A DNA stretch of 64,000 nucleotides from Tomocerus qinae (lineage: Eukaryota > Arthropoda > Collembola > Entomobryomorpha > Tomoceridae), in NCBI GenBank assembly GCA_020055645.1, contig CM034547.1, positions 6,510,001 to 6,574,000 on the forward strand, given 5' to 3'. The notes under the pieces were generated by a model. It did not search any database, was not told where the DNA came from, and was given only the letters and a program-made list of their open reading frames with translations. The number at the start of each line of letters is the position of its first letter. Positions within the stretch are counted from its first letter, which is position 1. A program made the position numbers and the translations under genes. Below, one piece after another: positions 22,301 through 62,100 of the stretch.

Positions 22301-24332
22301 ATCTTTACGTTATTTCCGCGGCACACTGCATGGATGGGTAAGTATTTCATATTCTACTGTCAGTTTTGAAACAATACAAATCAGTTGTTGGCGATTTCAC
22401 ATTTGAAATATGACAAAAATATGGAAAAACCACAAATGCGATTCTTATTATGGTTCTGGAAATAATATTCCACAATAATAGTTTTGGGGAACAGATCGAT
22501 TTTTGGGAAATTTGGAGGAATTTAATCGAATTATTTCGAATTTATTCGAATTATTTCGAATTTATTTTAATTATTTCGGATTTATTTTAATTATTTCGAA
22601 TTTATTTTAATTATTTCGAATTTATTTTAATTATTTCGAATTTATTTTAATTATTTCGCATTTATTCGAATTATTTCGAATTTATTTTAATTATTTCGCA
22701 TTTATTCGAATTATTTCGCATTTATTCGAATTATTTCGAATTTATTCGAATTATTTCGAATTTATTCGAATTATTTCGAATTTATTCGAAGTTCGAATTA
22801 TTTCGAATTATTTCGCATTTATTTGAATTATTTCGAATTTATCCAAACTATTTCGAATTTATTTGAATTATTTCGAATTTATTCTAATTATTTCGGATGA
22901 AGAGGGAAGAGGACTGAATTTCTGACGAGTTTAAACTTTTTATTTTCAAAAATTATTTTGACCTACTTAACGTTTACCAATTTTAACGTGATTAGGCTCA
23001 TTAGATCCACAAAAATATTGTCTGCAAACAGATAGGAAGTGGTTTCAGATACCTAGTCGGAAGGCGGCGGTATTAGGGTGAATATTATAAGTGATTACCC
23101 TGTTTACATAGGTAATTAAGCAATTACCAATAAAAATGGTAAAGGTAAGCATGAAATCAGCTCGTACAACAGGAATTAGAAATCATACTAGGATGGAATG
23201 AGCGGATGTTTCTGCAATTTTGTTGGCAATTCAACAACTGAATGTATAAGGAGACCAGGAGGTGTTACACACGAAGGAAAAAATGTATAATCTTGATTAC
23301 TGAATTATGGTCAGTGCATTACTGAAATATAATCAAATTACTTCTAGTATAAAAAAGATAATTTCTGTATATGCACAAATTCCTAGTAGAATTTATAAGA
23401 CTTTTTAGTCTACGGAAGAATAGAACGAGAGTAAGAGTCATAATATACATTTGTGGGATTTTGTCTCATTATTATGAGTTATAATTACTTAAGGTATCCT
23501 TATGCTTGTTTAATTGCTGCGAACTGAATTAAAAGTTTTTGTTTCACTCCATAGGCTTTATCCAAGTGATATCCAAGTGTGGATGACAGTTCACAGCTCG
23601 TTCGACTCAGCCTCATCTTTCGGTACTACAAAGGTCAATGTCCAGGACATCCTCATGCATCCTAACTACAACAGAAACACAAATGACAATGATGTGGCTC
23701 TGTTAAAATTGAGTACACCCATTGACACTTCTCAAAAGAACTATTTCGTGCCTGCCTGTATTCCTGCCGGTACATCAGATTACTCTGGAATACTAGCCAG
23801 AGGAACAGCTTGGTCTGATGGACGACGAAATCAAATCTGCAAAGCCAACATGCCTGTTCTGAGCAATTCTGTCTGCAAAAGAGACACAAAGCATCAAGAT
23901 AAGGTCACGGAAAATATGTTGTGCGCTGGATACCTGACTCCAAATAGAGAAGAGACATGCATTGTGCGTCCTACTTTTCAGTTTTATTTTACATCTCATC
24001 CTCCTAAGATGCGCTTTGTCACTCTACTAACTATTATCTATTAAAATTATCACAGGGAGATGCTGGTGGACCGTTAATGGCACCAAATGGAGGAAGATAC
24101 ACTCTCATTGGACTTGTGTCTTGGGGATATCGAAATGCTGGACAGTACAGTCCAACTGTATACTCAAGAGTTTCCGGTATACTAATAATAATCTGTTATG
24201 CACCTGATTCTAAAAAATATTCTCTAGAAAATACAGGCATTGAAATTCCTAATACGTTGTGGTTATTGTTTTTCAGCTTATACCGATTGGATCCTTCATA
24301 ATACTCGAGATGCTGACTGGTGTGGCAATTAA
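19350..24332 (+). CDS. SP5: secreted serine protease homologue (Ser195 to Ala) with a mucin-like propeptide, 8 exons
   Basis: A 626-aa predicted pseudoenzyme. Exons are 19350-19445, 19538-20564, 21338-21393, 22142-22205, 22286-22337, 23555-23963, 24056-24176 and 24277-24332, all phases closing. A signal peptide precedes a propeptide of about 340 residues dominated by Ala, Pro, Ser, Glu and Asp, with three degenerate repeats of the type STFESEYxxTSQFLSD. It ends ADC, then ACG, like all family members. The fold keeps His428 (SAAHC) and Asp478 (NDVALLK) but has GDAGG (Ala571). The S1 residue is Glu (EETCI), the Cys normally pairing across the S1 site is absent (WGYRNAG), and no basic IVGG activation site exists (SVPLGDS). 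If the GTGAGG donor at 20565 is ignored, the second exon reads on to a stop at 20608 and AATAAA at 21037, giving a propeptide-only protein. The full gene ends with AATAAA at 24767-24772. Confidence 0.85.
20565..21337 (+). other. SP5 intron with internal stop and polyadenylation signals
   Basis: Reading past the donor GTGAGG gives 14 further codons, then TGA at 20606-20608. AATAAA at 21009-21014 and at 21037-21042 could end a short transcript. The downstream exon at 21338 restores the family's Cys-X-Cys-Gly in phase, so both outcomes are structurally possible. Confidence 0.55.
21394..22141 (+). other. SP5 intron between the activation region and the PW exon
   Basis: A 748-base AT-rich intron. 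The small open frames in it have no motif, and no repeat was recognised. Confidence 0.6.
22519..22897 (+). repeat. AT-rich minisatellite in an SP5 intron
   Basis: About nineteen copies of a 20-bp unit, consensus GAATTTATTCGAATTATTTC with TTTTAA and CGCATT variants, inside the 1.2-kb intron 22338-23554. Each unit splits into two 10-mers, GAATTATTTC and GAATTTATTC, so the array probably grew from a 10-bp repeat. Many copies contain TTCGAA palindromes. Confidence 0.92.
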
Positions 24333-35532: not shown

Positions 35533-37394
35533 ATGTGGCCGCCGTTTGTTCCTAATAAATTCAGTTTCAAAGTGCACTCTACCAAACTCTTTACAGTGTT
35601 TCTACTACTGATTGTGCACAATTTCTCACACTCTTCTTCTCTCTCTGTACCTAAGGGTAGTTTAGAATTAACAGATGAGGTAAACACCTTTTAATTTTAT
35701 ATTCTGAAAATATTCTTATACGAAATTCTTTGAAAATTGCAAATTTTCTCTTTTCTCAGGTTCCAAATGAGAGTCAGTTAGTTAGTTTTACAACAGAAAT
35801 TAACGAAGCGGAGCCTGAATCAACTACATCTTCTGTTGAAGAAGATATTGGCTTCTTTGAATTGGATAATTCGACTGAGTCTACAAGTGCCAAACCTTTA
35901 TTAGATTGTCGTAAGTTGATAATTTATTCCACAAATTAATTACAGCCACAGTTGGAGAAAAATATCATTTTCTTGTGTAAATCTAGAGTGTGGGAGACTG
36001 TTATCGCCTTTGGGAATAGATACTCTTGCTGGATTCGAAACCCAGAAAACGTCAAGACAAATATCCGAACTAATCGTCGGAGGAAATTCCACATTTCGAG
36101 GCGAATTTCCTTGGCTAGCTGCATTACTTAAAATTAACCCTTATGCAAATTCCGTCCCTAGAGTTATTTGTGGTGCTACTTTAATCAATAGGTTAATACT
36201 TCATTTTATTTGTTAATTTTATTTAGACTATTTTATCCAGCATTATTAATTTTGTTTTTACCATTTTTCTTTATTTTTTTTCTGTTTAGCCGATATTTAC
36301 TTACAGCTGCTCATTGCATCAATAGGTATTTTTTCAACTTTTAAACTGTATAATTTATGTAATATTCTTTTTGTAAGCTTTTTTACATTTTTAACCTTTA
36401 TTATTAGACAAATCAAAGAACGATTAACGATCGCGTTCAACGCTTACACAATCACATCAGCATCGGATGTGAGACAAGATCCCGAAGTGATTGTAGTTGG
36501 AATCAAAAGACTTATTCCGCATGCAAAATTCAACATAAAGTCTGTTGACAATGATGTCGGATTAATCGAATTAGCAGAGCCACTGGATTTGATTAAATTA
36601 AAAAATAAAGTTCGCCCAGTGTGTCTACCCACGATATCCGAAGATCAGTATGAAGGGAAAATTGGCACCGTTGCTGGATGGGGATATACGAAGCCTGCGG
36701 GTATGTATTTTTTAGTCAAAGATCCCTTTCTCTTAGCTTGAACTAGAATTAATAAAAATGAAATAGGATTTTTATTCATAGCAGGAGTATCTTCTCCCGA
36801 ACTGAGAAAGGCCGATGTCCCCATTATGGCTCAGGAAAAATGCAGGAAAACTGCCTATGGAGCTAAGATCTTAAATAGCATGCTATGTGCTGGATACGAC
36901 GAAGGGGGAATTGATGCTTGCACTGTGAGTATTTTTATATCTTACGAAACCGATCTTTAATTTTAAACAATTATATTTAATCCTACTTCAAGTTAAATTC
37001 AGGTACACAGACTTTCGGACTTCGTTTTTAATTACTTATTTCTCAACAGAATGACTCAGGAGGTCCACTTACAATTTCTGATGACGAAAATAGGAATACC
37101 ATTGTTGGAGTTGTTTCATGGGGACATTCATGTGCAAAGCCCAAACTGCCTGGAGTGTAAGTGACTAATTTTTCTTACAATATCTTAAATGTGCCTAGAC
37201 CTAGATTTTAATCTTTATTTTAATATTTTCACAGGTATGCTCGAGTTGGAAGTAAGTACTTTAATTTCCATATTTCTTACGACAATCTCATTTCCTTAAC
37301 CTTATGCTAACATTGTCCTAATTTAAAATACGTAGATTATCTAAATTGGATTCAACAACATGCGAGGAAGGGAGATTACTGTATGCAGGCTTAA
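35533..37394 (+). CDS. SP7: secreted trypsin-fold protease with NDSGG active site, 9 exons
   Basis: A 384-aa predicted zymogen. Exons are 35533-35679, 35760-35910, 35987-36191, 36290-36325, 36408-36700, 36785-36924, 37050-37156, 37235-37251 and 37336-37394. The N-terminus is a long signal or signal-anchor: about 22 polar residues before the hydrophobic [11 protein letters not shown] core. The acidic propeptide ends LDC, then QCG and 26 residues to a non-basic activation site SEL|IVGG (Leu128). The triad is His176 (TAAHC), Asp229 (NDVGLIE) and Ser327. The motif is NDSGGP, with Asn for the near-invariant Gly193 of the oxyanion hole. IDACT keeps the S1 Asp. A 17-nt exon encodes VYARVG. SP8 shares the NDSG motif, so SP7 and SP8 form a subgroup now separated by the LTR element. 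Confidence 0.9.
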
Positions 37395-40334
37395 ATCAAA
37401 TTACCACATTCCTGTATTAACTTACTAACTGAATCTCAAAAGTAAGAACAATAACAAAACTAGACACAAATCCTTATAGCAGTACATAATAACACAACAA
37501 ACACATAATCATACACACTCACATACATACTTATTAATACAGCACGCAAACACTATAAATCTATGTAAATGTACACTGCACGCTTTACATTACATTACCA
37601 ATTATTTCACACCTTTAGTTAATGTCAGGTACACGATTGCACTGCACAAAACACATTTGACACATAATACAAGGATAACACTTTGAATCAAAAATTACGA
37701 TAAATCTTACGACAATAGTGATGGAAAAGGAAAAAAAGATGCTTAATGAGTCTATAATACATGTATACATGTCCTAACTTGCTTTAATCGCTCGTTCGCA
37801 TGAGAACTTTCATTTGAACGAGTGAACTAACTGCAAAAAATGTATCAAATGTGTATGCTTTATACTAATTATGTGGATCTCAATTTTTTAAAAGAATTGT
37901 CATATTTCTAAAAATGAGTCTAGAGAAATCAAATGATTATAAATATTTTTTTAAAAGCCACATCAAGCTTCTTTCAAAGTACACAAAAAGACCACAATGC
38001 ATTTACACACTCACTCACTTGCACACTTTTCGTTTACACAACATAAGCACACAACAAACACCATTTCACCTTAGCTCATCTTCAGTTTTTTATTCGCACC
38101 ACAATAGAATCCACAACAGCCACACGCTCAAAGCCACAAACACAAAAGTCTCACACAAAAATACACATCAAAAGGAAATTTATTTAGCTAATTAAGAAAA
38201 CAAAGACACTAATTACAAATTAAAAACATTCACATCTAACGTAAAACAATAGAAAATCAATCTCTCCCTACGTTTCAGTATTACACAAAACAAAGCAACA
38301 CCTACTAGATAATTAACATAACAAATATCACATTAAGTACCTGTTTAGTTACTACATTTTCTATTTGTTATCTACATACATATTCCACTTCACACAGAAA
38401 CATCATAAAACTCAGATACACTCACACACACATTATCAACACATAACGACACAATAATATCAGTTTAAATAAGAAATAGAATTACAATAGAGTAAGTTTT
38501 GTATTAGGTTATAATAGATTGAAAATACTCCGATGGCTAATGGAGTTTAGTGCTACATGGTATAGATAGAAAGCGATTTAGAATTAATTACACAGTATTT
38601 TAGTAATACTATAACAGATAAGCATTTACACTTAAAATGAACAGAATGAGATTTACAGAAGAGAAATATTTGTACGAAGCAAAGCAATCCCACCGTATAA
38701 AATAGGAATGTCAATTGAAGGATTACAGGTAGATGGCTAACTTTTTATTGGTTATTTAATAGTAGTAGATTTAGCAAAGTATACGTGATAGTCATTTTAC
38801 ACTTTTTATACACAGACATACACATACACATATTTAGGTACACTTACACAATTTCACAGTACACATTAAAATACATTCACTAAAACATCGATCACATACA
38901 CACACAATAGAAACCACATTGTCGAAACATTTTTACATTGTCACTACATTCCTTGACACATTCTTGTAACTCACATTCACATTTTTCACCACATAACTAA
39001 TCATACGCAGACACAAACACATTAATTCACACGAAACTAGATACATTGGTTTTACATTATTTATATGATAATATTACTATTTTAAGGACATTTTTTTACA
39101 CAATACATTTGTCCACAACACTCACTTTCAAAACAGCACTCACCCACCGCACAGACAAGACAAGGAAAAATTTAGCGCAATTAGTATCAGAACCATGGTT
39201 GTCTTTTGTTGCTAAAATGAATTGCTTAATTGCACATTAACATATTTGCACAATTTCCTCAAGGATCTACATGGTCACATCCAAAGTACACTCTAATTGC
39301 AAATATCACACTTTATCACTTTCGCTAACACTAAGTATAGAACTACAACATTACACATTATGCAGCCCATATCTAGACACACATATCTACGCAATAATAA
39401 CTTTATAGAACTCTTAAGGAGATCAGCTAATTAAGTACAATCAGTTGTAACAAAATTTTAAATGTTCTAATTGTGTAATTCTTCTGATAATTTTAAAAGT
39501 TACCAACCAGTATTATATTACACAACACATACACACATACACATACACTTCACACATAACAGCACATCGATGACATTGTATTTTTGTTAAACCAGTCAGA
39601 AATTGCTTCACTCTTTTACACACACATTCCTTACTATCCTTACATGGATTAAGATGATACACTTACAAGAAAACTAATCACTAAAACAGAAAAACACATT
39701 TTAATTTTTGTTATTGTTACACATAGTATGTAAAACCCAGATTAACACTTTTGTGGACACTTACACAAAGTTGGCAAATAAATACACAAAACAATATAAC
39801 TTATATATTGCAGAACTGGAATCTGTATCTTTTATATCAATAACATTTATCTCTGTTACATACCTCATTCACAATTACATTCAAATAGTAAATACATGAT
39901 CACATTTAAACATCTTCACACACATGCACTAGCCACACAATGATACATGCTCACTCACAAGCTCACATTTCCTACATTTCACTTGCAATAAACAATTTCC
40001 TAATTGTTCATACAATGTACAAAAGGTTTTTTTACATACCTATTCACTCCTGAGGACGCTAAACACATTACATCTTTACATTGTTTACACACTACAGATA
40101 TTTACATGCATAAGAACTTTCGAATTTAAAAATACACTTCAGTTCCAATTACCAATTTAATAGATTATTAATTGAACTGTTGTAATTTCTTAATACATCT
40201 ACAAAAATATCGAATTTCTCTATTAAATACATAACACACAGAGATTACATGCATATATACATGCACAAACAGATACAGAAAAGATCCATACATCTATATC
40301 TCAACAGACCATTTTACTGCACCACTTTACATAC
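37395..40334 (+). other. G-poor, A/C-rich low-complexity tract
   Basis: About 2.9 kb rich in CACA, ACATT and TTCACAC words, with strikingly few G on the plus strand, immediately downstream of SP7. Open frames here translate to His/Thr/Asn/Lys-rich strings that follow base composition, not a protein family. The same composition resumes after the LTR element, so the element landed inside it. It could be a long 3' UTR or non-coding transcript. Confidence 0.6.
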
Positions 40335-40339
40335 ATAAC

Positions 40340-40780
40340 TGTTAGAATACTAACCTAAATAAATGCATGAGAAAGTAAAGTAGCAAATGTTCACACAATT
40401 GGTTTGTACATTTAAGCTGAACATTAGATTTTAAGGGTCCAAGTACTTAACGTTTGGCCCTTCTTAATGTAGTAACTATTAGTTTTTATGATTTTGTAGC
40501 TCAATTAAGTCTAAATGAAGCATGAAAGCATATGGGTACAACTGTTACATCGTCCCATGTCCCTTGCTTTATAGAGATACCTATTGTAACCATTAAGGGT
40601 CTCTCACATCTGTCTATGTAAGCATAGTATTTAAATACCATGGACAATAATGTAAAAGTACTGAGTATTATTCAACTGTTTGAGCTGGAAACTTCATTCT
40701 CTCTCTGTTCAATAAAAGTTACTTTACAGTAACAACTAAATACAAAACTTGTCTCACTAACTGAATCCGTTTTCATAACA
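40340..40780 (+). repeat. 5' LTR
   Basis: 441 bp, TGTTAGAATACT to TTTCATAACA. It contains a palindromic TATA-like GTATTTAAATAC (40627-40638) and AATAAA at 40711-40716, giving a U3-R-U5 layout. Confidence 0.95.
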
Positions 40781-40800
40781 TGGTGTCAGAAGTGGGATTC
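40781..40800 (+). promoter_or_regulatory. primer-binding site, tRNA-Leu type
   Basis: TGGTGTCAGAAGTGGGATTC abuts the LTR with no spacer. It begins TGG, the complement of CCA. The rest matches what is expected for the 3' acceptor and T-arm of a eukaryotic tRNA-Leu, judged from memory of tRNA sequence patterns. Confidence 0.65.
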
Positions 40801-40941
40801 AGGATTCGATCTGTGAGTTAAAAGAATTCAAGTTTTTGAACTTAGTGAATTTGTCCAATCAGTAAATACTTAGTCAGTTTTTTGTGTGGAAAAGAGTGAA
40901 GTATTTGTGAGTGAGCAAGTTGTTGAACTCTGACAAGTAAA

Positions 40942-41835
40942 ATGGCCACCGTCAGTATTTCGCAACGTATTGATACAAATCACGTTGTAAAACTTGCAAA
41001 TGATAATTGGGATCTCTGGAACTTACAAATCACTCCTAGTTCTTAAAGCTGCAAAAGTGTGGGACGTTGTCAGTGGCACATCCACTCGTGCAGCCGCAGC
41101 TGATAAAGATAAATGGGACGATTCTGATATAAAGGCCCAAGCCATCATTGTACCCACTCTTACATTAGTGAACGCTACTCATATCCACAGTTGTATTACA
41201 TCAAAACAAGTGTATGACCGTCTAAAGTCAATTCATAGGTGACACAAGTCAGTTGAACAAACAGTTTGTGTTAGCTTCATTCTTCAACTATAAGTTCAAA
41301 GAGGGAACAACTCTTGTCACTACATACACTGAGATAGAGAGGTTGTCAATCTCTCTAAACCAAATGGGTGTGGTTATTGACGATGATACCACAATTATGA
41401 AGATAGTGTCTTCACTTCCTGATGAAAAGCATAATGCTTTCAAAAAGGCATGGGACAGTGTTCCTGCAGCATCCCAAACAATGCCCGCACTGTTAGCCAG
41501 GTTGAGAAAAAGAGGATCTTGAGCTGAAACAAGTAAGCAACACTGAGGAGGAGCAGAGCCAAGTAAAGGCGTTTCAGGCAAAAGGAGGAAAAGGGAAACT
41601 CGACAAAAAGGAATTCAAGAAAAGAAAGATTGAAGAATTAAAGAAAAAGACCAAATGCAGTCGGTGCAAACAGACTGGTCATTGGTATAAGGATAAGGAA
41701 TGCCCAGCCCGCAATACACACCCCAACGAAAGTGAGGAGGATAAAGAAAGACAATTGCAGCCTTCATGTGCAATCCAAATCATGGTAATGATGTATGGAT
41801 TTCAGATTCCGTGCAAGCCAACATATATGCGGTAA
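40942..41835 (+). pseudogene. gag: broken gag of the copia element
   Basis: Capsid and nucleocapsid precursor. ATG at 40942 opens a frame with the copia Gag signature DNWDLWNLQI that stops at 41044-41046. Matching Gag sequence continues in a second frame (40994-41242: KAAKVWDVVSG, QVYDRL), a third (41253-41522: LNKQFVLASFFNYKF, IVSSLP) and a fourth (about 41506-41835) that holds a Lys-rich linker and one zinc knuckle CSRCKQTGHWYKDKEC. Each transition looks like a small indel, so this copy cannot make full Gag unless the indels are sequence errors. Confidence 0.85.
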
Positions 41836-42903
41836 AAAATCCTTCTTTATTTCATACAAAGAGTTTGAGACCCGAGTGTCAGTATACCTTACTGACGGAA
41901 ACGCAGTGGAAGCCCAAGGAATAGGAACTGTTTCAGTATTGGCATTCATGAACAATAAATGGATAGAATGCACAATGAATGAGGTACTGCATATTGAGGG
42001 AGCAGCCAATCTCTTTTCAGAAGTTATTATGGATAAAAAGGGATATACCATAATAAGAGCAGCGGGAGTGGCAAAATACATTGATAGAAATGGATTAGAA
42101 GGGCCAGTAGCTGTAATGAGAGATAATATGTATATTATGAAGTTTAAACCCATTGTACCGAACAAAGCAAATGCAATATGCTTGAGCTCTAATGCAAGAC
42201 TCTGGCATGAGCGAATGGGTCACATCAATATAAGGTTCATTAATGACACGGCCAAGAAAAATGCAGTGAAAGGATTTTATGAGAATTTTGGAGAACAGTC
42301 CATTGAATGTAGCACTTGTCAATTGGGAAAACAAGCTAGAAAGCCTTACCACACAGTGGAAACTAAGAGAAATACTAAGCCAGGGGAAATGGTTCACGCA
42401 GACCTATCTGGGAAAATGCCTGTTACTTCTATTGGAGGAGCTGATTATTTCTTCCTAATGAAAGATGATTCGACAGGATTTCGTATGGTATTCTTTATCA
42501 CGAAAAGACACAAGTCCCTGCCTGTATTGAAGAGTATGTTTACTTTATGGAAAACCAGACAGGATCAAGACTTAAAGTTTTTAGAAGTGACAATGGAACT
42601 GAAATGGTTAATAAGACAGTTCAGACATTCTTTCAGAAAATGGGTATTGTACATGAGACCACGGCCCCATACAGCCCTGAATCGAATGGGAAGATAGAAC
42701 GGGAAATGAGAACTTTGAAAGAATCGGCTCGCTGTATGCTACTGCAGTCAAAACTGCCAGAATATTTGTGGGCTGAAGCAATGGCCACAGCAGTTTACAT
42801 AAAGAACCGAATTCTGGATACACAGAGTCCAGAAATAACAGCATTTGAGGCTATTTTAAAAGAAAACCAGAAATGGGACATTTGCGTATTTTTGGATGCC
42901 TAG
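41795..42903 (+). pseudogene. pol: broken protease and integrase region of pol
   Basis: The aspartic protease starts in the frame break near 41800, where the catalytic Asp-Ser is read in one frame and the following ASQH in the next. The integrase zinc domain (LWHERMGH, CSTCQLGK) and the first catalytic Asp (HADLSGK) are in the 41795-42697 frame. The second Asp (SDNGTE) and the catalytic Glu (SPESNGKIERE) lie in another frame, 42547-42903. Order and motifs are standard for copia elements. Two frame changes separate the catalytic residues. Confidence 0.88.
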
Positions 42904-45900
42904 CCTTTGCACACATACCACAAAACAAACGAAAAGTGTGGAATGATACTGCTGAACAGAGTTATATGGTTGGATATGATGGAGAAAGCTACAGAATATA
43001 CAATGCTCTTAATAAAACAGTAACAATTGCTCGTAATGTAACTTTCAAAGAAGTAGTACAAGGTGAAATTTCTCTTGAGGAAGCGAACAGCTTTGAGCAG
43101 AGTAGAAAAGAGTTAAGTGAACCTGTGGGAGACGAAGAGGAGATAGAATCCTACATAAAGCCAGGGCCTACTTTAAGGGATAGGTCCAAACTAAAGCCAA
43201 TAGACAGACTTCAAGTTGGATTTCATACAAAAATAATAGAGCCAGCAACGTTTGATGAAGCAATTATGTCACCCAATGCCAAGGAATGGATGGAATCCAT
43301 GGTGGATGAATTACATAGCCATAAATTAAATAAAACTTGGACTTTGGTCCCTTACCCAACAGACAAGCAAGTACTTGACAACCGTTGGGTATACAGAGTA
43401 AAAACAAACCCAGATGGCTCAATTTCAAGATTTAAGTCCCGTTTGGTTATAAAAGGTTACAAGCAAGTACATGGAATTGATTATTATGCCACATTCTCCT
43501 CTGTTGGCCGATACGAAAGCATAAGGATTCTGATATGCATAGCAGCTACATACGGCTACTTTATTGTACAACTGGACATCAAAACAGCCTTTCTGCATGG
43601 GAAAGTTAAAGAAGTTATTTATATGAAGCAGCCTGACGGATTTATAGAAAATCCTAACTTAGTTTGCTTGTTGGACAAGAGTCTTTATGGGCTTAAGCAA
43701 GCACCGAGATGCTGGAACGAGAGATTAACTGAATTTTTAAAAGAAAATAATTTTAATGTATTAACAAGCGACCCTTGTGTCTTTATTGGATTTGTTAACA
43801 CATACATTGTATACCTACTGGTATATGTGGACGATATTTTAATGGTGTCCCCAAATAACGAAGCACTAAAAATGGTTACACAGAGAATTGAGTCTACATT
43901 TGAAATATCAAAAGGAGAACTAAGCTCTTTCGTGGGATTCGAAATTAAACGAAGCGAAGACGGAATTTATATGGGACAGGCATCGTATGTACAAACCTTG
44001 CTTGACAGATTTGAGATGACTGATTGCAGTGTACAGTCTGTACCAATGCAACCGAACCAGGATTGGCTTCCTGCTGAGCAGTGTGAGAAAGGACTGCCCT
44101 ATCCACAGCTCATTGGAGCTTTATTGTTTCTCACAAGATTATCCCGTCCTGACATTGCCTATGCAGTGTCAAAGCTGTCCCAATTTATGAGTGCATACGA
44201 TGAGAATCATCTCGAAGCAGCGAAAAAGGTACTTATGTACCTAAAAGGAACAATAAACTTGGGTTTGTATTACAAGAAGGGAGGAGAGTTGAGTTTGAAT
44301 GGCTACTCGGATTCAGACTTTGCAGGCAACAAACTTGACAGGAAATCAACCACTGGTTATGCCTTTTTCCTTGGAGATAGTTTGATCACTTGGAACAGTA
44401 ATAAGCAACCTATAGTGACTTGTTCCAGTACAGAGGCAGAGTATGTTGCTCTTTCCTCAGCAGCCAGGGAATGTGTTTGGCTGCAAACCTATCTTTTGGA
44501 GCTGCAGATACCACAAGACGGCCCAGCCAAGCTGTTCGTTGACAATACAAGCGCTATACGGCTAGCTAAAAACCCAGAGTTTCATAAACGTACTAAGCAT
44601 ATAGATGTACGTTACCACTATGTCAGAGAACTAATAACTAATAATGTAATAGAGGTACACCATGTACCCAAAGAAGAACAAAAGGCAGATGTACTCACAA
44701 AACCACTGCTAAAAGGCAAACATCAGCATGATACACAGAAACTTGGACTCAGTGCAGGAAACGGGAATATCAATCCCCATTCAAAGATCGGTGTTGGAAC
44801 TGGAACCATAAGTGGACTAATGAGCAAGTTATTCATTACTATGCTACTATTGCTGGGACTTCTATCTCCAATTACTGCAAACCCAACCGTAAACCAACCA
44901 GTACTCTGGAGGCCAAGTAACATACCTATAACTGTAGGTTACAATGAGTACTATTTAATGATTCATTTGAAAAGCCCTTGCGACATTTTGACGAATGAGA
45001 CAATTCATGAGGATCTTCTCATCGATACGAAAAACAAATGCAACGAACTGTATGATGAATATTTTATGAAGGAACTGGAAATTATGTGCCCTAAAGGCAG
45101 CTTCACAGAAGTCCATTCACGCTCTAAGAGATTTGTTTTTGGAATATTAATGGGAATACTAATCATGTCCATAGTTGTTCCAGTTGGACTTGGAATCTCA
45201 GCACAGGTGACAGCCAGTGTCGCAGCAGGAAAAATAGCAACTGTTGAAACGAAGATGAGTGAGATGGAAAGTGAACTAGAGAGTCTTTCGAAAAATATGG
45301 AATTGGCGAAAGAAGCAATTAAAGTTCTACAACATAATGTAAAACTTTTGCGGATAGAAACTAAGGCACATGAAGATGACTATACACAAATGAAAGCAAA
45401 GCTGAGCGCATCTATTTACGCAATTTCATACATAACATCAAGAATGCTGACTGCCAAACAAATACTTAAAGAAGCGAAGCGAAATTGGGAAGAACGAAAG
45501 TTATATGCTCCATTGTTTGACTATCTTGGCTTCTCCTTGCCATGTAAAGAGTCTTGTCCAATTCGGCTTGGCAGAGCAAAGAAATGTCGAATATCTTATG
45601 ACAAATCTAAACTGTACTTTGATTTTGTTACTCCACTTATAAATGATACTCTGCACCTTCTGGAGGCTGACCCTTTTGACCTGATACACCAAACTGAGAA
45701 CCAGACTTGCGTTATCTCGTTTTCTGGACCCCGAAACGTGATCATGAGTGAATTACACAGTTGTGTGTATGCAGTTAATGTTAAATACTCTGATTTGATT
45801 TTGTCTCCTTCACAGGATTGTGACCATAGCATGACCTACCCAAACGTCTCGAGGTATTATTCGTTGGGAAAATGTCATCCGAGACATACAAAGGACGCGA

Positions 45901-46226
45901 TGGATTTCGTTCAAGTAAAAAACTTCAACTTTCAGAATTATATTTATTGCCACGGCAATAATATTACAATTGGAAAAAGAGAACAGGCCTGCCCACTTGA
46001 TGTCTTTACACTGCCAATTACAGCAGCTTTCACAATCAATGACCATTTCTACAAGGCCGGCGAATTTCAAATTAGCCATATCCAGGAGGTCAACCCTTTA
46101 TTCACGATGAAAGCTAATTGGCTATTACAGCCAAAGATACACATGGACGAAATTAAGGAAGATATAAAAATGTTGGATTCAACTAAGAAAATCATGATTC
46201 ATATAATACTACATTTATGTTTTTAA
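42873..46226 (+). CDS. pol: long pol-env reading frame: integrase C-terminus, reverse transcriptase, RNase H, envelope-like protein
   Basis: 1,117 codons with no stop. Residues 1-60 are the integrase C-terminal region. The reverse transcriptase spans about 165-420 (WVYRVKTNPDG, TAFLHG, SLYGLKQAPR, YVDD near 318). RNase H spans about 475-612 (DSDFAG, STEAEY, ADVLTKPL). About 37 residues later, with no stop codon, Met650 opens an envelope-like protein that runs to the end. Direct fusion could be real or reflect loss of a stop codon. A spliced env mRNA is another option, since CTCAGTGCAG just upstream of 44757 resembles an acceptor. Confidence 0.92.
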   Translation: MGHLRIFGCLAFAHIPQNKRKVWNDTAEQSYMVGYDGESYRIYNALNKTVTIARNVTFKEVVQGEISLEEANSFEQSRKELSEPVGDEEEIESYIKPGPTLRDRSKLKPIDRLQVGFHTKIIEPATFDEAIMSPNAKEWMESMVDELHSHKLNKTWTLVPYPTDKQVLDNRWVYRVKTNPDGSISRFKSRLVIKGYKQVHGIDYYATFSSVGRYESIRILICIAATYGYFIVQLDIKTAFLHGKVKEVIYMKQPDGFIENPNLVCLLDKSLYGLKQAPRCWNERLTEFLKENNFNVLTSDPCVFIGFVNTYIVYLLVYVDDILMVSPNNEALKMVTQRIESTFEISKGELSSFVGFEIKRSEDGIYMGQASYVQTLLDRFEMTDCSVQSVPMQPNQDWLPAEQCEKGLPYPQLIGALLFLTRLSRPDIAYAVSKLSQFMSAYDENHLEAAKKVLMYLKGTINLGLYYKKGGELSLNGYSDSDFAGNKLDRKSTTGYAFFLGDSLITWNSNKQPIVTCSSTEAEYVALSSAARECVWLQTYLLELQIPQDGPAKLFVDNTSAIRLAKNPEFHKRTKHIDVRYHYVRELITNNVIEVHHVPKEEQKADVLTKPLLKGKHQHDTQKLGLSAGNGNINPHSKIGVGTGTISGLMSKLFITMLLLLGLLSPITANPTVNQPVLWRPSNIPITVGYNEYYLMIHLKSPCDILTNETIHEDLLIDTKNKCNELYDEYFMKELEIMCPKGSFTEVHSRSKRFVFGILMGILIMSIVVPVGLGISAQVTASVAAGKIATVETKMSEMESELESLSKNMELAKEAIKVLQHNVKLLRIETKAHEDDYTQMKAKLSASIYAISYITSRMLTAKQILKEAKRNWEERKLYAPLFDYLGFSLPCKESCPIRLGRAKKCRISYDKSKLYFDFVTPLINDTLHLLEADPFDLIHQTENQTCVISFSGPRNVIMSELHSCVYAVNVKYSDLILSPSQDCDHSMTYPNVSRYYSLGKCHPRHTKDAMDFVQVKNFNFQNYIYCHGNNITIGKREQACPLDVFTLPITAAFTINDHFYKAGEFQISHIQEVNPLFTMKANWLLQPKIHMDEIKEDIKMLDSTKKIMIHIILHLCF

Positions 46227-46372
46227 ATTTGTTGATTGGTGGAATCATTTTTTTGTCTCTTATTATAATAATTCTGGTTGTTGTTATGATTATCATTTGG
46301 AAACGGAAGAAAACTGTCGAGCCTGCTGTAAAATTTACAGCCCCTAAAACCATCGAAATAGATGATGCCTAA
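44820..46372 (+). pseudogene. envelope-like glycoprotein with class-I-fusion architecture, anchor out of frame
   Basis: From ATG 44820 the frame encodes a signal peptide (about 20 residues with a Leu-rich core, MLLLLGLL), an N-terminal segment of about 85 residues, and a furin-type site RSKR (codons 45120-45131). A Gly/Ala/Val-rich hydrophobic fusion-peptide-like stretch follows at once, then a heptad-rich coiled coil, a Cys-containing ectodomain with several Asn-X-Ser/Thr sites, and a stop at 46226. A strong transmembrane helix (ILVVVMIIIW) and basic cytoplasmic tail are encoded at 46217-46372 in another frame, so this copy as written yields an unanchored protein. Short N-terminal and long C-terminal subunits, with the fusion segment right at the cut, recall paramyxovirus-type and baculovirus-F-type fusion proteins. 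The exact source family is not established. Confidence 0.8.
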
Positions 46373-46399
46373 AGAAAATGTATTTAGATTAAGGGATAG

Positions 46400-46840
46400 T
46401 GTTAGAATACTAACCTAAATAAATGCATGAGAAAGTAAAGTAGCAAATGTTCACACAATTGGTTTGTACATTTAAGCTGAACATTAGATTTTAAGGGTCC
46501 AAGTACTTAACGTTTGGCCCTTCTTAATGTAGTAACTATTAGTTTTTATGATTTTGTAGCTCAATTAAGTCTAAATGAAGCATGAAAGCATATGGGTACA
46601 ACTGTTACATCGTCCCATGTCCCTTGCTTTATAGAGATACCTATTGTAACCATTAAGGGTCTCTCACATCTGTCTATGTAAGCATAGTATTTAAATACCA
46701 TGGACAATAATGTAAAAGTACTGAGTATTATTCAACTGTTTGAGCTGGAAACTTCATTCTCTCTCTGTTCAATAAAAGTTACTTTACAGTAACAACTAAA
46801 TACAAAACTTGTCTCACTAACTGAATCCGTTTTCATAACA
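46400..46840 (+). repeat. 3' LTR
   Basis: 441 bp, same ends as the left LTR and no mismatch seen in comparison. Its AATAAA lies at 46771-46776. The preceding AAGGGATAG is a short polypurine tract candidate. Confidence 0.95.
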
Positions 46841-46845
46841 ATAAC

Positions 46846-48280
46846 CAATCCAAAATCTACATTATATATAATACAAATATTGAAGACAAAAAAGGTCAGC
46901 TAGAATACAGTCCTACGCCTACGAGTGCATTACTAATGCATTAAAAGCATTTGTTTAATTTTTTTAAAGATTGGCTTTATTTCTATGAATTTTTAAGTAA
47001 ATGTAAAATATTTTCTTCAATTCAAAATGATAAATCAAACAAACCAACAATTTTAATCATATTAACAGTAAGTAATGTTAAAATCTTATTACATAGCACC
47101 AGGCAGGTACATATTATGCACATACACTTACGTTACATGCATCAACACTAATATACACACATCACGAATTCCATTCATTTATCCACACACTTTAATGTTA
47201 AGATCAGCAAACTAACGCTTTCTTAACGAAATAAATGGTTAAAATATGTTATGATATCTCAATTTACTACATTTGCACCAAATCATTTGTGTACCTTACC
47301 TTGCGAAATATCGGTCCATTAACACTCATAACTATAACCATACGTGCACTGCACTACATTTCCATTACATTTTTATATGTACAAAATGATACAAATAATG
47401 AGACAAAGTATAAATACTAAATCTGGAAATAAAAGTTTGTTAAAAATGATTAGTCAAAAAGTGTTTCAGTCTATGTGCAAAGTAGTTTCAATTTCATTCT
47501 ACTCAAACAACGGCTAGCTACAAATGTTATTATTCTTTGTTGCTATCTATATCAATAAAACAGAATTTTGACAAATACAATTGAAAGTAATAATCGTTCG
47601 TGATGTTTTCTTTATTTTTCCCATTCTTTTTTACATGAATCAAAAGTAAACATGCCAGAAACAAATGAATGCTAAAGTTGTGCGGAAGTTATCCTGAATG
47701 GATAAGGATAGAATGAGAATAATCATTTTGCATCATACAAGCTTACAATATTTATTTACTAGACGTGGGTGAATGTGTAAAGCCAAGCAGAAGTTGAAAG
47801 TAAGCTCAGTAGGCAGTACCAGACTTCCTGAATGATTGATTAAAATAAATGTTTATCTCGAATTAGAATCTGAGTATCTATTTATCACATAGTCAAGTCA
47901 ACTTCTGAAGACTAAAGAGTATGTGGGACATCCATAAGAAACAATTTTAAGTACTCAGATAAATGTTTTCATTGTCCATGTATAATATGCATATCATTAT
48001 TTTCCAACTAATAACAAAATATCATTCCACTCTACACAATAGTTAAATAGAAATTGAATCTGAAATTGTGTTTTTAATGACTAAACACATTAAAGGTTCA
48101 TACATTGATTTTACAGACCTCTTTCAACACGCTTCTCTAATTTTTGGTAGCCTAATGAGTTCCCTCTCCAATTGTGGGCAACCATTCTATATGTAATTTA
48201 AAAGGTTGAACTTGAAGATTATTAGTTTTGTACTACAGGGTTAGTCTTTTAAGACAGTGTAGGATTTTAACATGTACTTC
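46846..48280. other. continuation of the low-complexity tract, then non-coding
   Basis: The first 600 bases resume the A/C-rich, G-poor composition seen left of the element. The remainder is ordinary AT-rich DNA without a supported gene. Confidence 0.5.
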
Positions 48281-48905
48281 AAATGAGAACGAATGGGAAC
48301 GAATGAGGACGAATGGGAACGAATGAGGACGACTGAAGACGAATGACTGATATGAATTGGATCAAATGAGGAGAAAGACGAGGAATGGGAACGAATGAGG
48401 ACGACTGAGGACGAATGACTGATATGAATTGGATCAAATGAGGAGAAAGACGAGGAAAGGGGACGGATGAGGACGAAAGGGGGCGAATGAGGACGAATGA
48501 GGGCGAATGGGGACGAATGAGGACGAATGAAGACGAATGACTGAATTAGATCAAATGAGGAGAAAGACGAGGAATGGCAACGAATGAGGACGACTGAAGA
48601 CGAATGATTGATATGAATTGGATCAAATGAGGAGAAAGTCGAGGAAAGGGGACGGATGAGGACGAATGAGGACGAAAGGGGGCGAATGAAGACGAATGAC
48701 TGAATTAGATCAAATGAGGAGAAAGACGAGGAATGGGGACGAATGAGGGCGAATGGGGACGAATGAAGACGAATGGGGACGAATGAAGTCGAATGGGGAC
48801 GATTGAAGACGAATGGGGATGAATGAAGACGAATGACTGAATTGGATCAAATTAGGAGAAAGACGACGAATGGGGACGAATGAATGAATTGGACCGAATG
48901 AAGAT
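48281..48905 (+). repeat. GAATGAGGAC-type minisatellite with higher-order units
   Basis: About 620 bp built from variants of a 12-base unit (GAATGAGGACGA, GAATGGGGACGA). A longer motif containing GATCAAATGAGGAGAAAGAC recurs five times, giving a higher-order period of roughly 60-120 bases. The plus strand is almost pyrimidine-free apart from C in ACGA and T in AATG. Minus-strand reading gives a repetitive Ser/Pro/Phe/His string with no sign of being a gene. Confidence 0.93.
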
Positions 48906-50941
48906 ATTATCGAAGTTTTCTTACCTTCTGTCATTGGGCAGGCCTGAGGATGGAAAAAGATGCCAAATTTTGATAATAAGCTTTTTTTCTATTTTAAGGC
49001 ACGAACTTATGAAACCAGAGCTCAAGACATTGCTGAACTGAAGGCAAAGATTGTTCTCTTTAATGTTCGACTTACTGGGAAAACAGAATGGATCAGTAGG
49101 AAGTGGTCATACATTTGGCATTTGTAATGAAATTAAAGTATATGTAAAAATGTATACCTTAAATGACTAACCCTGTACTAGTCATGGAATTAATGGACGT
49201 GGAAACCTGAAGTACACTTTCTACAGATGTACATAAATGTGTTTGCAGTTTTGGTATCTCTGCGATATTAAATACATAGTGGATTTCATTTAACCTTAAT
49301 ACAAATGTTTTGTTTTGGAAATTGCATTTTGCCAATTTAGTTGTGGCTGTGAATGTCAAGTCCTTTTATGCATCTTTACAATTAGGATTTATATCGTTTC
49401 CTTGTATGTCTTTAACTGTAGATGGATGGACGTGGTGCAGATAGCTTTAGTATAAAGCATATAATGAGTATCGTGTGACACTTTTGCTCTGAATTTAGAT
49501 CATTGAGTAGCAGCAGACTCTGAGTCTCCTGATAGAGCTGACAATAAGAAGAGTGCAGTGGGTTAAGAAAATGAAATAAGATAAAGAGAGAGCATCTGTG
49601 TATTCAGGTGTCTTCGTGGTATAGTGGATTCACAAGCTGATGCAAACAACCCACCCTACACCTCTGTACTTCACCTTTCAATCAAAATCAATCAACAATA
49701 GGTAAATACGCCACTCTAAGCAGACATACCTAAAATGTACGCAGAAACAAAATCTGTATTCAGTTCAGGAAGAAAATTTACTACTTAAGTAGTGAGATGA
49801 GAAATTGGCAAAGTCTGTCTCCATAATGAATGATATAAAGAGCAATGTATCATTGATTAAATTATGTTGGTATACAATAGAATGATCATTAGAAAAATGA
49901 TAATATTAAGAGCAGAGTGCCAGGTAGGTTAACAAAGTAAATGAGTTAGGTGTTTAAAAAGCATTTACGATGTGGTTATGGTAGGTAAAAGGAATATTAA
50001 ATTATGTGAATTAGCATTCTCTGTAGACTAGAGAGCAAAGCTTAATACTCTGCATAATCCTACTTTATTGTTATGAAGAGATAGCAAACAAGTTTGATTT
50101 GATTGTCTGTTAATGCGATTGTTGCGATTCTCGATGTCAAAAGAATGTATGTCTCATGCAATGTTCTCCTTAGGAAACGATGTACTATTCAATTGTCATA
50201 GCTAAGTACGAATTCTAATGGCACTACCTATACGTGCAAAATGGATGGACATTAGAGATCTATTTAATTTGCCTATTTCAATTCTACAAGAGATTCAGAG
50301 CAGCTGCTGTGCACTAGTAGGTAGATCCTATGTTGCTTGTCAAATAAATCTTTTATTTTGATCTGGAGTTAAAGAGAATGGAGAAGAGGAAAGGGCAGTA
50401 GGCGACATTAATTTTGCATTTCCTATATGAATGTGCACAAGTGACTATATTTATATACTGGTGGACATTTTTGGCATGCGTTACATGAATACTGAAAGTT
50501 TGTGGATGTGGTAGTGCCTTGTATTGGCATCTGGTTGTGTCAGGTCGGTGGTCGGTCACACAACAATCAAACTCTTTGTCAAACAAAAAAAAGAGGTGGA
50601 TAGGATCAAGTCAAGGCAATAATGAAACTGAAGCTAAAGAAATGACTTCATCTTTCCTTTCCTTTATTCTTACTAACTAGCTGACATTTAAGAGTGGGTC
50701 ACTTACATAGGAAGTAAAGTAAACTATTACCTTTCATCTCTATGAAATACTACATTTCCTATACACAAATATTATAGAAAGGAAATTGCATTATTATTAT
50801 TCTACTATTTATACCCAATTTGTCTAGGCTAGTCCATAAATTGTTACGTAGTCGCTGTGAAAGACTCAAGAGTAAAAGTATCCTTTCTGTGGGAGTCAAT
50901 CTTCTAAACTTGTCATAAAAACTCAAACTTAAAGGCAGAAT
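48906..50941. other. intergenic, upstream of SP8
   Basis: No supported gene. One exon-like open stretch at about 48,999-49,127 follows a polypyrimidine-AG but has no partner exons. The SP8 promoter is expected near the right end without a clear TATA match. Confidence 0.45.
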
Positions 50942-52852
50942 ATGAAAGTGAAAACGTTTACAGTTTCAGCTATTCTTATTTTACTAAATGCAACATTCGC
51001 CTGGACACAAGTACACAATTCCCAACTGACCACAGATAAAGAGGTAAGTCTGAAAATCTATTTTATGAAAGTCTATGTACTTACTAAAACTTTTACAATT
51101 TACTGTAAATCATTAACTAAATGTCAACTTAAATCATCTCATTATACTCGAGCGTAAAGATATTCCTAACGTCGAGACAGTTATCGTATTTCTTCCTACC
51201 AATGTTTAGTTAAATACTTTAGTAATTGCAAACTTGTAATTCTTAGAATAATGAGTTTCCCGACTTTGAGGAATATGATTTCGAAGGGACTACACCTGCG
51301 GACGATATTTTATATCGATCTGACTATGAAGCTGTAAAAATTGACTGCGGTAAGAAATTCATACTATTATAAAAAAAACTTCGTAATAGTAAACTTATAA
51401 ACGTATACAAATAATAGTTACACCTATTTAATGAGTTCAAATGGGAGTACATAAAACACAAATAGAAATATAGACTGTAATGTATTTAGTATTTATCTAC
51501 AGATTCTTGTGATTTCAGGTAATATAAACTAACCAGATTTCCATTTCGGCGTTTAATTAATTGATGTTTGTTTTCCATTATAAAGAATGTGGAGTAAAGA
51601 ATCCAGGAATTCATCCTGATATTAGACAAGTGTATTCCAAAGTCGGTTCCAGAAGTTTGCTACTGTCTGCAAAGCCTAAGCCATTTATTGTCGATGGCAG
51701 AGAAGTGCGGGTAAGTAGTAGTACAAATGAACAAAATCATAGAAATAAAATAGTTCAAGTTTCATTTTTACAATGGTAACAATTTAGCGTTCAGAATTCC
51801 CCTGGCTAGCAGCAGTAACTCAGTATTTACCAAGAAAACCATTTTGGAAGGTCGTCTGCAGTGCAAACTTAATTACTTCGAAAATGCTTGTAAGCGCTGC
51901 TCATTGTTTCGGAAAGTTAGTGCTACAACTTATAAAATGAGTATCAGTATTTATTGATTAAATCTAAAACTTCTTGGCGGTAATCATTAAAATTAATTGT
52001 GGCTAGTTTTTATCTGTAGAAATCGATACAAAGACGCTATGGAAATTGTGCTGAATGCTAAAGAAACTGATAACTTGAGATACGACACGGAAGTCGTCCG
52101 CAAGAAAATCAAAAACATTGTGATCCATCCTATGTATAATCCTCGAACTCATGAAAACGATATTGCTCTAGTGGAATTGAAGGAACCTGTGGATTTAATT
52201 TCACAGAGCAATATCATTCGACCAATTTGTCTTCCTGGTGGTCGAGATGACTTTGCGAATAAAGTGGGTTCGGTCGCAGGTTGGGGTTGGCAATCTTTTC
52301 CAAAAGGTAGATACAAATATGATTGTGCAACCAGACCATGTAAATTGTACTTGATAAGAAAAGCTTTTTCTCGTCTAGGTACAAATTCTCCGAATCTTCT
52401 TAAGGTAAACTTACCTATTTGGAAAAATTCAGAGTGTTTACAATCAAGACTAAATGGCACCGGATTATTCACCCAGAACATGATGTGTGCAGGATTTCTT
52501 GAAGGAGGAAAGGATGCTTGCACTGTAAGCAAATTATTTAATAAACATTAATCCATGTTTAATTAACCATTTATATGGCTGTATTAAAATATGTACAGAA
52601 TGATTCGGGCAGTGGACTTTTCGTAAAAAGTGGAAGAAAACATGTAATTGCTGGACTCGTTTCATGGGGAATAGCGGGATGTGGAGTGCCAAATGCTCCA
52701 GGTTAAAAATTCTGCATAAAGACAATTAAAGATACACATTTAAATATACACCTGCTAACTTTTAATTTAATGCAGGAGTGTATACTAGAGTGTCCAGCTA
52801 TACAAGTTGGATCAAAGATGAAGCATTTCAAGGAGAATGGTGCAAACACTAA
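50942..52852 (+). CDS. SP8: secreted trypsin-fold protease with NDSGSG active site, 8 exons
   Basis: A 356-aa predicted zymogen. Exons are 50942-51043, 51247-51349, 51586-51710, 51788-51915, 52020-52306, 52379-52524, 52599-52701 and 52776-52852, closing in frame. A signal peptide (cleavage near residue 20) and a short acidic propeptide end IDC, then ECG. About 30 residues on, the mature start reads KPF|IVDG, so activation would follow Phe102, not Arg or Lys. The triad is His149 (SAAHC), Asp200 (NDIALVE) and Ser300. Asn replaces Gly193, and the usual GGP is GSG. KDACT keeps the S1 Asp. Exon boundaries match SP7, to which it is closest. The stop overlaps AATAAA (52851-52856). Confidence 0.9.
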
Positions 52853-59153: not shown

Positions 59154-62100
59154 CTAGTTGCGATTTCTTCTGAATTTCAGCCTGGGACCAAGTCCGATTT
59201 TGGCCGGTCCATTTGCATTATTAGATGTTGAGTTAAGACGGATTTCCCTACTAATGTTAGTGCTACTACTACTGCCTCGACTATTGACACTGATACTCTT
59301 GGAATTTCTTGCAGCTGTAGGATTTCTGTTGCTGGTATCTTCAGCACTTGCATTTCTGGTGGTTCCCTTAGGAGACCAAAAGACAGGTGATTTACTTCTT
59401 TGGAATTGGTACATTTTCATGATATCCGATTGCATTTGCGATGTTGTTTCTCCAGAAGTCAAGGCTCCAATTCCATATCTTCCAAATGTTGCATCTGGAA
59501 GAGGCGATGTTGGAATAGTGGTGTCGGTAGCATCAGTGACAACAACTGAGTCTGTAGTAATAGTCTCCGTATCCACTTCTCCACCAACATTATTAGCCTC
59601 ATCGTCGAACACGATGGCCGAAGAATCAGTTACTACTTCTTTACCGTCTTTAATGACAACAATGGGCACTGTTGTTCCGATTCCGATACCTTCTCCCTTC
59701 TCTTGAGATCGGCCTCCCTTCTCTTGAGATCGACCTCCCTTTTCTTGAGATCGGCTTCTCGTCGTAATAATTTCAAGTGAACCCCTCGGTAATTTTTCAT
59801 GGCTGTTAGGAAGTCGGTTTACGGAAGTGGTGACAGTAGCAACACTGGAACTGGTACTTAACGGGACATTCTGCTCACGACTCACGGTGGACGTTGTGGA
59901 AATGCCAATTCTTTTCGTGGACGAATTTCCAGGGAGTACAGTTGTGCTTGTCACGTAGACGATATTTTTTGACTCGCTGCTTCCGCTTGCCAATTGATCC
60001 TCTCCTATCTCTTGACTCTTTACATCAGAGTGTCGCTCTACAATATTAGTAGTATTTGGTGTATTAATATCCGGTTTTACTGTAGGTGTGTTTGGACTCC
60101 ATAAACTTTGTCTCGTGGTTTTCTTAAATGTTGGTCGAACTGTGCTCGTCGCAGAGTAATCAATAGATTGATAGCGATAGAAAGAGTTTATGTAGTCAGG
60201 ACTGGGAGGAAAACTGGTCATTACAGGTCGTAGAGTGATTCGTCGATGAATAGTATTTGGATCTATGCTAAATTTACTACCTTCTTCTGCTACTTTGTCT
60301 TGAAGACTATTAACATTCCTCCCCGAAATAAAGTGTTGCGCTCGCAGAACTTCGTCAGGAGAGAGATTTATCCTCGCCCTGTAAATTCCATCATGTAAAT
60401 TAGTTCGGAATATTGGAACAACGTCATTTAAAGATTTTTTCAAAGTCACAACCAATTTTATGATTGTGAGTTTGAAAATTAATAGAGTACAATGAGTACG
60501 TAGTACAGAAATAATACATCAATGTAAAAACATAGAGATCAATGCATAGGGAAAATAAGTGCTGTAGTCTATAGATTAATTAAGCGTATAAAAGTTGGCA
60601 GTTTGGAAGTATGAGTTGCATTTCATTTCGATATTAGTTTATGAAAAAAGAATAAGTTAGTATTAAAGTGCCCGAATCTCAAGAACAAAGATTTTCCATA
60701 AAAAGGAACATGCAACTTCATATCTGAAAATCCTTCCTTACCGATGTGACCTTACCGGGAGTCAGATGCCGAACCAGATCCAGAGCCAGATTCTTCCAAG
60801 TCAGCTCTGAGGGCACTTTGTTCAGCAGATGCATTCGGATCTGGGAACTGTGTCACAGGGTAATTGTAATACAAACAGCGAACCTGTTCGCAGATGAATG
60901 GTAGTGACCCATCACAGTCCTCTGGCGTGAATATAGTTCTTCGGGTGGCTGTTGCCTTCATTGACATGCATTGCTTTATCCTACCCAAAATAAATAAATA
61001 AATACACACAAAGTATCAAGTAAACAAACATGTAAATTACAGTTTACTCCAATTGCCTATTCGTTTAGTAATATAATAATAATAATTTTAAAAGAAAGGA
61101 TCTAGATTCTAGATTGCTTTCTAATCTCATTTCTAACTATCACATTATGATAGCCATTCCTTTTTCTACACTTTATACCTATCACATGATTTCCTAAATA
61201 TGCAGATATAAACAAACCATTATAGAAAATGAAAAATAATTTACCTACTTTTACTAGAAGTGTTTCTGTTAGATTTAGTTCACATTATGTAGCAGTTCGC
61301 ATAAATATTCCCGTAAATAGTGTACTTAAGTACAAAATTTCTATAATAATACCAATCTGTGCATAAACCGACTGCTCGCGTCTGAAGATATAGATAGATA
61401 ACAAGTGAAACACTCCATTTCACACGGTATTGACTTTTGCCATGTAATTAAAGCGATTCTATGAACTGTCAGCCTTCAACCCACAGGTGCATGCGACATT
61501 TTCCATTTGCAAGTACAAGAACGCAATGCAAAAGTCGGAGGCGTACTTAATAAATGATAGCAGGCCAGTCTATTGTTCAGATTCACTTCGTTTAGAGTTT
61601 TACATGTGTACTACTTTGTACATATTAGATAGTTGAATCACAACATGAAATATTATAATAATGTCTTTAACTGGAATGGTTATGGCTTATAGAATAATTG
61701 AGAACCGATGGGAGTTTAAGTCAAACTGAACAGAATGGCAATTGCCTGTACAAGAATCTAAAGTATTTCTCACGCCACTACTGCTATTTAATTATACACC
61801 CAGAGCTACAAGTTTATGGTCTGATTAAATTGTGATTATACAGATTCGTTATGCAATCATTGTATAATGAAAAGGATTTTAACGAGTTAATTGACACAGT
61901 CGGTAGACATAATTATCCGTTAGACTTAGATTATACTACTTTTCTACTGTTTTCAATAAAGTTCATACCATTACGTTAATATATTTCAAAGAGAGCTTAG
62001 TCAACAGTCAAGAACATGTGCTTAGAACTTGTAAGACAAATATTATTGCTACCATTTTTCAATGGCAATAATAAATATTGCAATTTATATTGTATCAGTC

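Follow-up and report, generated by a model that had tools for sequence, protein, structure and literature searches.

A copia-type retrotransposon with pol running into a predicted F-like class I env gene suggests an env-bearing, likely animal Ty1/copia lineage

A retrotransposon becomes a retrovirus-like agent by capturing an envelope (env) gene, and env-bearing long terminal repeat (LTR) retroelements are known. Here we describe a 6,501-bp LTR element at positions 40340-46840 of a 64,000-nucleotide stretch of Tomocerus qinae DNA (GCA_020055645.1, contig CM034547.1, positions 6,510,001 to 6,574,000; this whole stretch is the window), in which a Ty1/copia-type pol runs into a gene for a predicted fusion (F) glycoprotein. 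The abstract and text of the Pseudoviridae profile of the International Committee on Taxonomy of Viruses (ICTV) describe the family as having no extracellular phase, a table in it states that virions might be enveloped, and env is assigned to the plant Sireviruses (PMC8515867). A review states in general terms that, in the families Pseudoviridae, Metaviridae and Belpaoviridae, expression of an env-like gene is confined to few members (PMC11599104). Sireviruses such as SIRE-1 are Ty1/copia elements with an env-like gene after pol, the position that env also has in the window, but they are restricted to plants (PMC8515867), whereas the window element has an F-like predicted Env fold and surrounding genes that suggest an animal. 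The envelope function of plant env-like open reading frames (ORFs) has been called unclear (PMC5408684). Errantiviruses (gypsy, ZAM, TED) are likewise LTR elements with a captured env, for which a baculovirus source has been proposed (PMC12440569, PMC13269885). TelKA, a retroelement of bdelloid rotifers, has an env that most resembles the class I F proteins of paramyxoviruses, which by description likens it to the window env, but it is placed among retrovirus-like LTR families (PMC5408684). Mosquito BEL/Pao elements are animal LTR elements with a captured chuvirus glycoprotein (PMC13172572, PMC10084718), and a chuvirus env is also given for Anakin (PMC12440569); the mosquito elements differ from the one described here in having a type III glycoprotein (PMC13172572) and a BEL pol. 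For arthropods, the available part of one paper gives no clear capture of a Jingchuvirales glycoprotein by Gypsy or Copia (PMC10084718), and the available parts of papers on LTR elements of zebrafish, silkmoth and annelids report no copia env (PMC8672886, PMC6563192, PMC8220671). Among the matches listed, the literature searched, which left most subscription journals and Repbase outside its scope, held no env in an animal copia element; it described animal env capture for gypsy and BEL/Pao, and copia env only as a debated plant ORF. What sets the present element apart from the env-bearing LTR retroelements of that literature is its likely membership of an animal copia lineage whose Env is F-like.

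We consider it very probable that this is a copia-type element whose pol runs into an F-like class I env gene, and that env gave its lineage an enveloped, retrovirus-like way of spreading from cell to cell. The best reading is an env-bearing, likely animal Ty1/copia lineage that took its own path towards an agent like an enveloped retrovirus, with an infectivity that we infer; this agrees with a preliminary description of the locus, which had proposed an animal copia element with a fusion glycoprotein as an independent route towards such an agent. The element is read on the + strand. The 5′ LTR (40340-40780) and 3′ LTR (46400-46840) are identical at 441 of 441 positions, have TG...CA ends and are flanked by a 5-bp target-site duplication, ATAAC (left copy 40335-40339, right copy 46841-46845). 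The LTR sequence had no additional copy elsewhere within the 64-kb window. Because the LTRs are identical, the insertion is likely to be recent, and the element is likely to be a recently inserted LTR retrotransposon of the Ty1/copia type. Directly 3′ of the 5′ LTR lies a candidate primer-binding site (40781-40800), the complement of what we take to be the 3′ end of tRNA-Leu, unlike the tRNA-Met that is usual for pseudovirids. The ICTV profile gives initiator tRNA-Met as the usual primer of the family (PMC8515867). A weak, pyrimidine-interrupted candidate polypurine tract (46389-46399) precedes the 3′ LTR.

The Pfam domains of the element follow the order PF14223, PF22936, PF13976, PF00665, PF25597, PF07727, with integrase preceding reverse transcriptase (RT). 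Copia-type gag (PF14223; 40942-41522) scored above its cut-off in two pieces, which lie in different frames, and is followed by a gag C-terminal piece (41506-41832) with a zinc-knuckle-like motif below the Pfam cut-off. The protease region (PF22936, Pol_BBD) and the GAG-pre-integrase domain (PF13976, gag_pre-integrs) occupy 41745-42694; these two models and that of the integrase SH3-like domain (PF25597, SH3_retrovirus) each scored above the cut-off. The protease active-site region is apparently split across two frames. The C-terminal part of the integrase core (rve, PF00665; 42469-42900) reached 32.5 bits against a cut-off of 32.6, that is, 0.1 bit short. A single frame (42849-44756) then carries the SH3-like domain, RT and the RNase H region and runs on into env. 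Within it, RT (about 43329-44051, with YVDD) matched RVT_2 (PF07727) with 229 bits (E 6e-68, cut-off 31.6) as against 14 bits for RVT_1; among PDB sequences the RT stretch matched nothing of significance (best E 0.78), and in NCBIfam nothing at all. On the evidence of Pfam models and domain order, we conclude that the element is copia-type. The copia-like protease, integrase and YVDD RT of the preliminary description are thus borne out. Its RNase H after RT is a tentative assignment, made from position and from the way the stretch aligns with other copia pols at their C-termini; the Pfam models of RNase H gave no match, not even at E 10 when that stretch was searched by itself.

Membership of gypsy was rejected on the RVT_2-type RT and the position of integrase before RT, and membership of BEL on the RT type and on what we take to be the BEL domain order. 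Errantivirus env is of the class I F type and errantivirus pol is gypsy-type, with RT before integrase, whereas the window element has an RVT_2 RT preceded by integrase; the gypsy-type RT followed by integrase that marks Errantivirus (Metaviridae) was not found in it. TelKA is not known to be a copia element. Drosophila copia and Hemivirus have the same copia gag and pol order as the window element and, to our knowledge, no env.

We placed the window RT in a tree, built by a quick tree search, of 59 of 121 copia-type rows (the window, the best-scoring rows, the named rows and the partial P0020). The tree holds copia-type rows only, without a gypsy or BEL outgroup, so that family placement rests on Pfam and domain order; among these rows the window groups with copia-type RTs. 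It falls in a six-row clade (Shimodaira–Hasegawa-like approximate likelihood-ratio support 100) nested in a 27-row clade (99), whose sole named row is from the isopod Armadillidium. Plant-named rows fall outside this 27-row clade, no row in the tree is named Sirevirus, and four other named animal rows, three from Petrolisthes crabs and one from the coral Paramuricea, lie in a different clade. One protein of the window's RT clade, P0011, has a hydrophobic segment soon after its pol C-terminus, possibly a decayed env or a different env start.

From the end of pol the frame continues through a linker into env without a stop, with the env Met at 44820 and the stop at 46224-46226; the RT-env frame comprises 1,125 codons without an in-frame stop. 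In frame with pol, env (44820-46226) encodes the ectodomain of a predicted class I F-like fusion glycoprotein. It begins with a signal-peptide-like hydrophobic stretch (44820-44879, by hydropathy only), followed by an RSKR furin-type cleavage site (45120-45131, env residues 101-104), a fusion-peptide-like hydrophobic segment 3′ of that site (45135-45191, from about residue 106) and a long predicted helix resembling a heptad-repeat-A coiled coil (45255-45491, residues 127-205 of the AlphaFold model); there are 5 NXS/T sites and 13 Cys. The preliminary description had named an env directly after pol with such a start, cleavage site, hydrophobic segment, coiled coil and glycosylation sites, and all of these were seen. 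It had also named a transmembrane helix: a membrane anchor (about 46241-46297) and a basic cytoplasmic tail reaching to 46372 (together 46241-46372) are present, but both lie 3′ of the env stop and in a frame different from that of the ectodomain. A C-terminal hydrophobic segment occurs in 12 of the 12 homologues that reach the C-terminus.

The AlphaFold model of env matched paramyxovirus or pneumovirus F proteins in all 50 of the 50 PDB matches listed (best E 3.8e-9), and two marks of a class I F protein were found, namely an F-like predicted fold and a furin-type site combined with a hydrophobic segment and a coiled coil. We conclude that env has a predicted F-like class I fold, in keeping with the fusion glycoprotein that had been proposed. 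Of the 10 env proteins scanned, 4 showed Pfam Fusion_gly at a score under the cut-off (the window, E 0.0041; P0004, 0.0016; P0007, 0.02; P0010, 0.0064) and the model was not listed for the remaining six of the nine homologues. A PDB sequence search with env gave F0 proteins as the best match, with E 0.15, or 0.055 with a profile, and coiled-coil proteins close behind. The Pfam env models of baculovirus F and errantiviruses found nothing at E 0.1 in env, a threshold that remote relatives can escape, and PHROGs and NCBIfam gave weak matches only, mostly of the coiled-coil type.

Searches for relatives of env returned 16 proteins besides the window: 8 by env search, 12 by alignment search (7 of them new) and P0010 by way of the RT search. 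The pol C-terminus and env share one frame in 4 of these 17 (the window, P0010, P0003 and, more weakly, P0130), a count to be read with the caveat that protein calling favours continuous-frame cases. P0010 is a single protein of 1,100 aa in which RT and the pol C-terminus are followed by an env that has both anchor and tail; it is 54% identical to the window from RT to the end of pol and 34% in env. In P0003, env is preceded at the N-terminus by a copia pol C-terminus with matches to 77 of 121 pols, of which the match to the window is the best, and the protein continues from there into env. In P0130, the weakest of the three linked cases, the N-terminal pol end is shorter and matches 2 of 121 pols. 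The env regions of the three are 34-47% identical to that of the window. When the window env was compared with 120 of the 5,227 pols found, P0010 was the only match. The other relatives comprise seven whose start is a Met of their own close to the signal peptide (P0001, P0002, P0004, P0006, P0007, P0129 and P0134), five that are N-terminally cut or garbled (P0008, P0131, P0132, P0133 and P0135), and P0005, which has a short extension without a match before env. One env copy, P0006, is labelled 'type II secretory pathway pseudopilin PulG' at its source, which is probably a mislabel. P0010, P0001, P0006 and P0007 come from metagenome contigs, 7.0 kb long for P0010 and 22 kb for P0001. In viral contigs, 45 pattern stretches from the env alignment and 18 from the RT alignment yielded no confirmed case and P0130 found no stretch; in prokaryote genome contigs, none of 384 pattern stretches was confirmed. 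A midpoint-rooted env tree of 17 rows, with 5 of 14 inner branches starred, separates P0010, P0130 and P0132 from the window, P0003 and the rest (99/99). Because linked cases occur on both sides of this main split, the copia-env link most likely predates it. These comparisons suggest that the link is probably ancient, and repeated capture would be the less simple account.

Several observations weigh against the proposal of an enveloped copia lineage. By its sequence alone, env is not firmly placed among F proteins. Furthermore, 13 of the 16 env relatives were found without pol sequence, and one copy was examined in this genome, as might fit a one-copy accident in which a host or viral gene landed by chance beside a single copia copy. 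We regard such an accident as highly improbable, since env is enclosed by a perfect LTR pair, where it follows the RT frame, precedes the 3′ LTR and is in frame with pol, and since P0010 and P0003, with P0130 a weaker case, retain the pol end and env in one frame. These linked relatives already contradict a chance landing, and with it the one-time capture of host sequence that the preliminary description had considered. A further point concerns the state of the copy, which, unless it was mis-assembled, is broken both in gag-pol and ahead of the membrane anchor; an anchored Env product from it is most likely absent now. The gene order given in the preliminary description holds, but gag and the front of pol are scattered over several frames, the breaks being frame changes between overlapping pieces. 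Taken together, identical LTRs and frame changes mean either that an element broken beforehand was copied recently or that the assembly is in error. A defective copy mobilised in trans by helpers, with broken frames that are real and older than the insertion, would be compatible with an enveloped lineage and would match the combination of identical LTRs and many frame changes, as expected if an RNA that was broken beforehand had been copied recently. However, the RT-env frame is free of stops throughout, and frame changes between overlapping pieces fit an assembly error as well; we find mobilisation in trans plausible but lean against it.

The final point is that, according to the ICTV abstract, Pseudoviridae lack an extracellular phase. 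Together with the break before the anchor and an env infectivity deduced from sequence, this would favour an env kept for a non-infectious job, as a remnant or regulatory membrane protein or for transfer of capsids between cells without enveloped particles. Yet env proteins with an identity of 34-52% to that of the window have all retained the anchor, the hydrophobic segment and the furin-type site, as expected if the fusion function was used, and the ICTV table allows for possibly enveloped virions (PMC8515867). A non-infectious role is, in our judgement, unlikely.

For the enveloped lineage that we favour, we propose that the gene for an F-like glycoprotein was captured by an ancestor, its probable source being a negative-strand RNA virus. 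The secretory pathway would produce Env, and cleavage at RSKR would free the fusion peptide; with its coiled coil Env would form trimers, and on budding together with capsids it would bring about membrane fusion. Copia capsids could thereby gain an exit from one cell and an entry into another. Expression of Env would probably be either through a Pol-Env polyprotein, of which it would form the C-terminal part, or through a spliced RNA beginning at Met 44820. Because the frame is continuous in four elements, a role for the Pol-Env fusion is favoured, subject to the calling bias noted above; the seven relatives with apparently separate env ORFs count against it. A more far-reaching version holds that a whole animal Ty1/copia lineage became enveloped through one ancient F-type capture from an arthropod negative-strand RNA virus, and that it makes Env by extending Pol in frame at the C-terminus. 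To us this version is finely balanced, tipping slightly towards doubt; if true, Env as an extension of Pol would differ from the layout in retroviruses and errantiviruses, whose env is spliced separately. Conservation of an F-like Env in a likely animal copia lineage makes an infectious third LTR-retroelement family testable, along with its site of action (for example, soma-to-germline transfer) and Pol-Env fusion as an alternative mode of Env expression.

The surroundings of the element were surveyed across the window. Five + strand ORFs carry partial trypsin domains (5798-6271, 15142-15747, 23514-24041, 36250-36738 and 51997-52548), which place the element within a serine-protease gene array. 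These ORFs suggest an animal host, perhaps an arthropod, and together with the one named RT neighbour, Armadillidium, they are the grounds on which the lineage is called animal. No tRNA (under bacterial settings) and no Rfam family at the gathering score was found in the window. On the − strand, 59157-60518 is an open frame of 454 aa, rich in Ser and Thr, without a Pfam match at E 0.01. A repeat array at 48241-48893 consists of many copies at 10-bp spacing, and its minus strand is open with a Ser/Phe-rich reading. Strong GC skews of opposite sign flank the element, −0.36 at 38001-40000 and +0.31 at 48001-50000.

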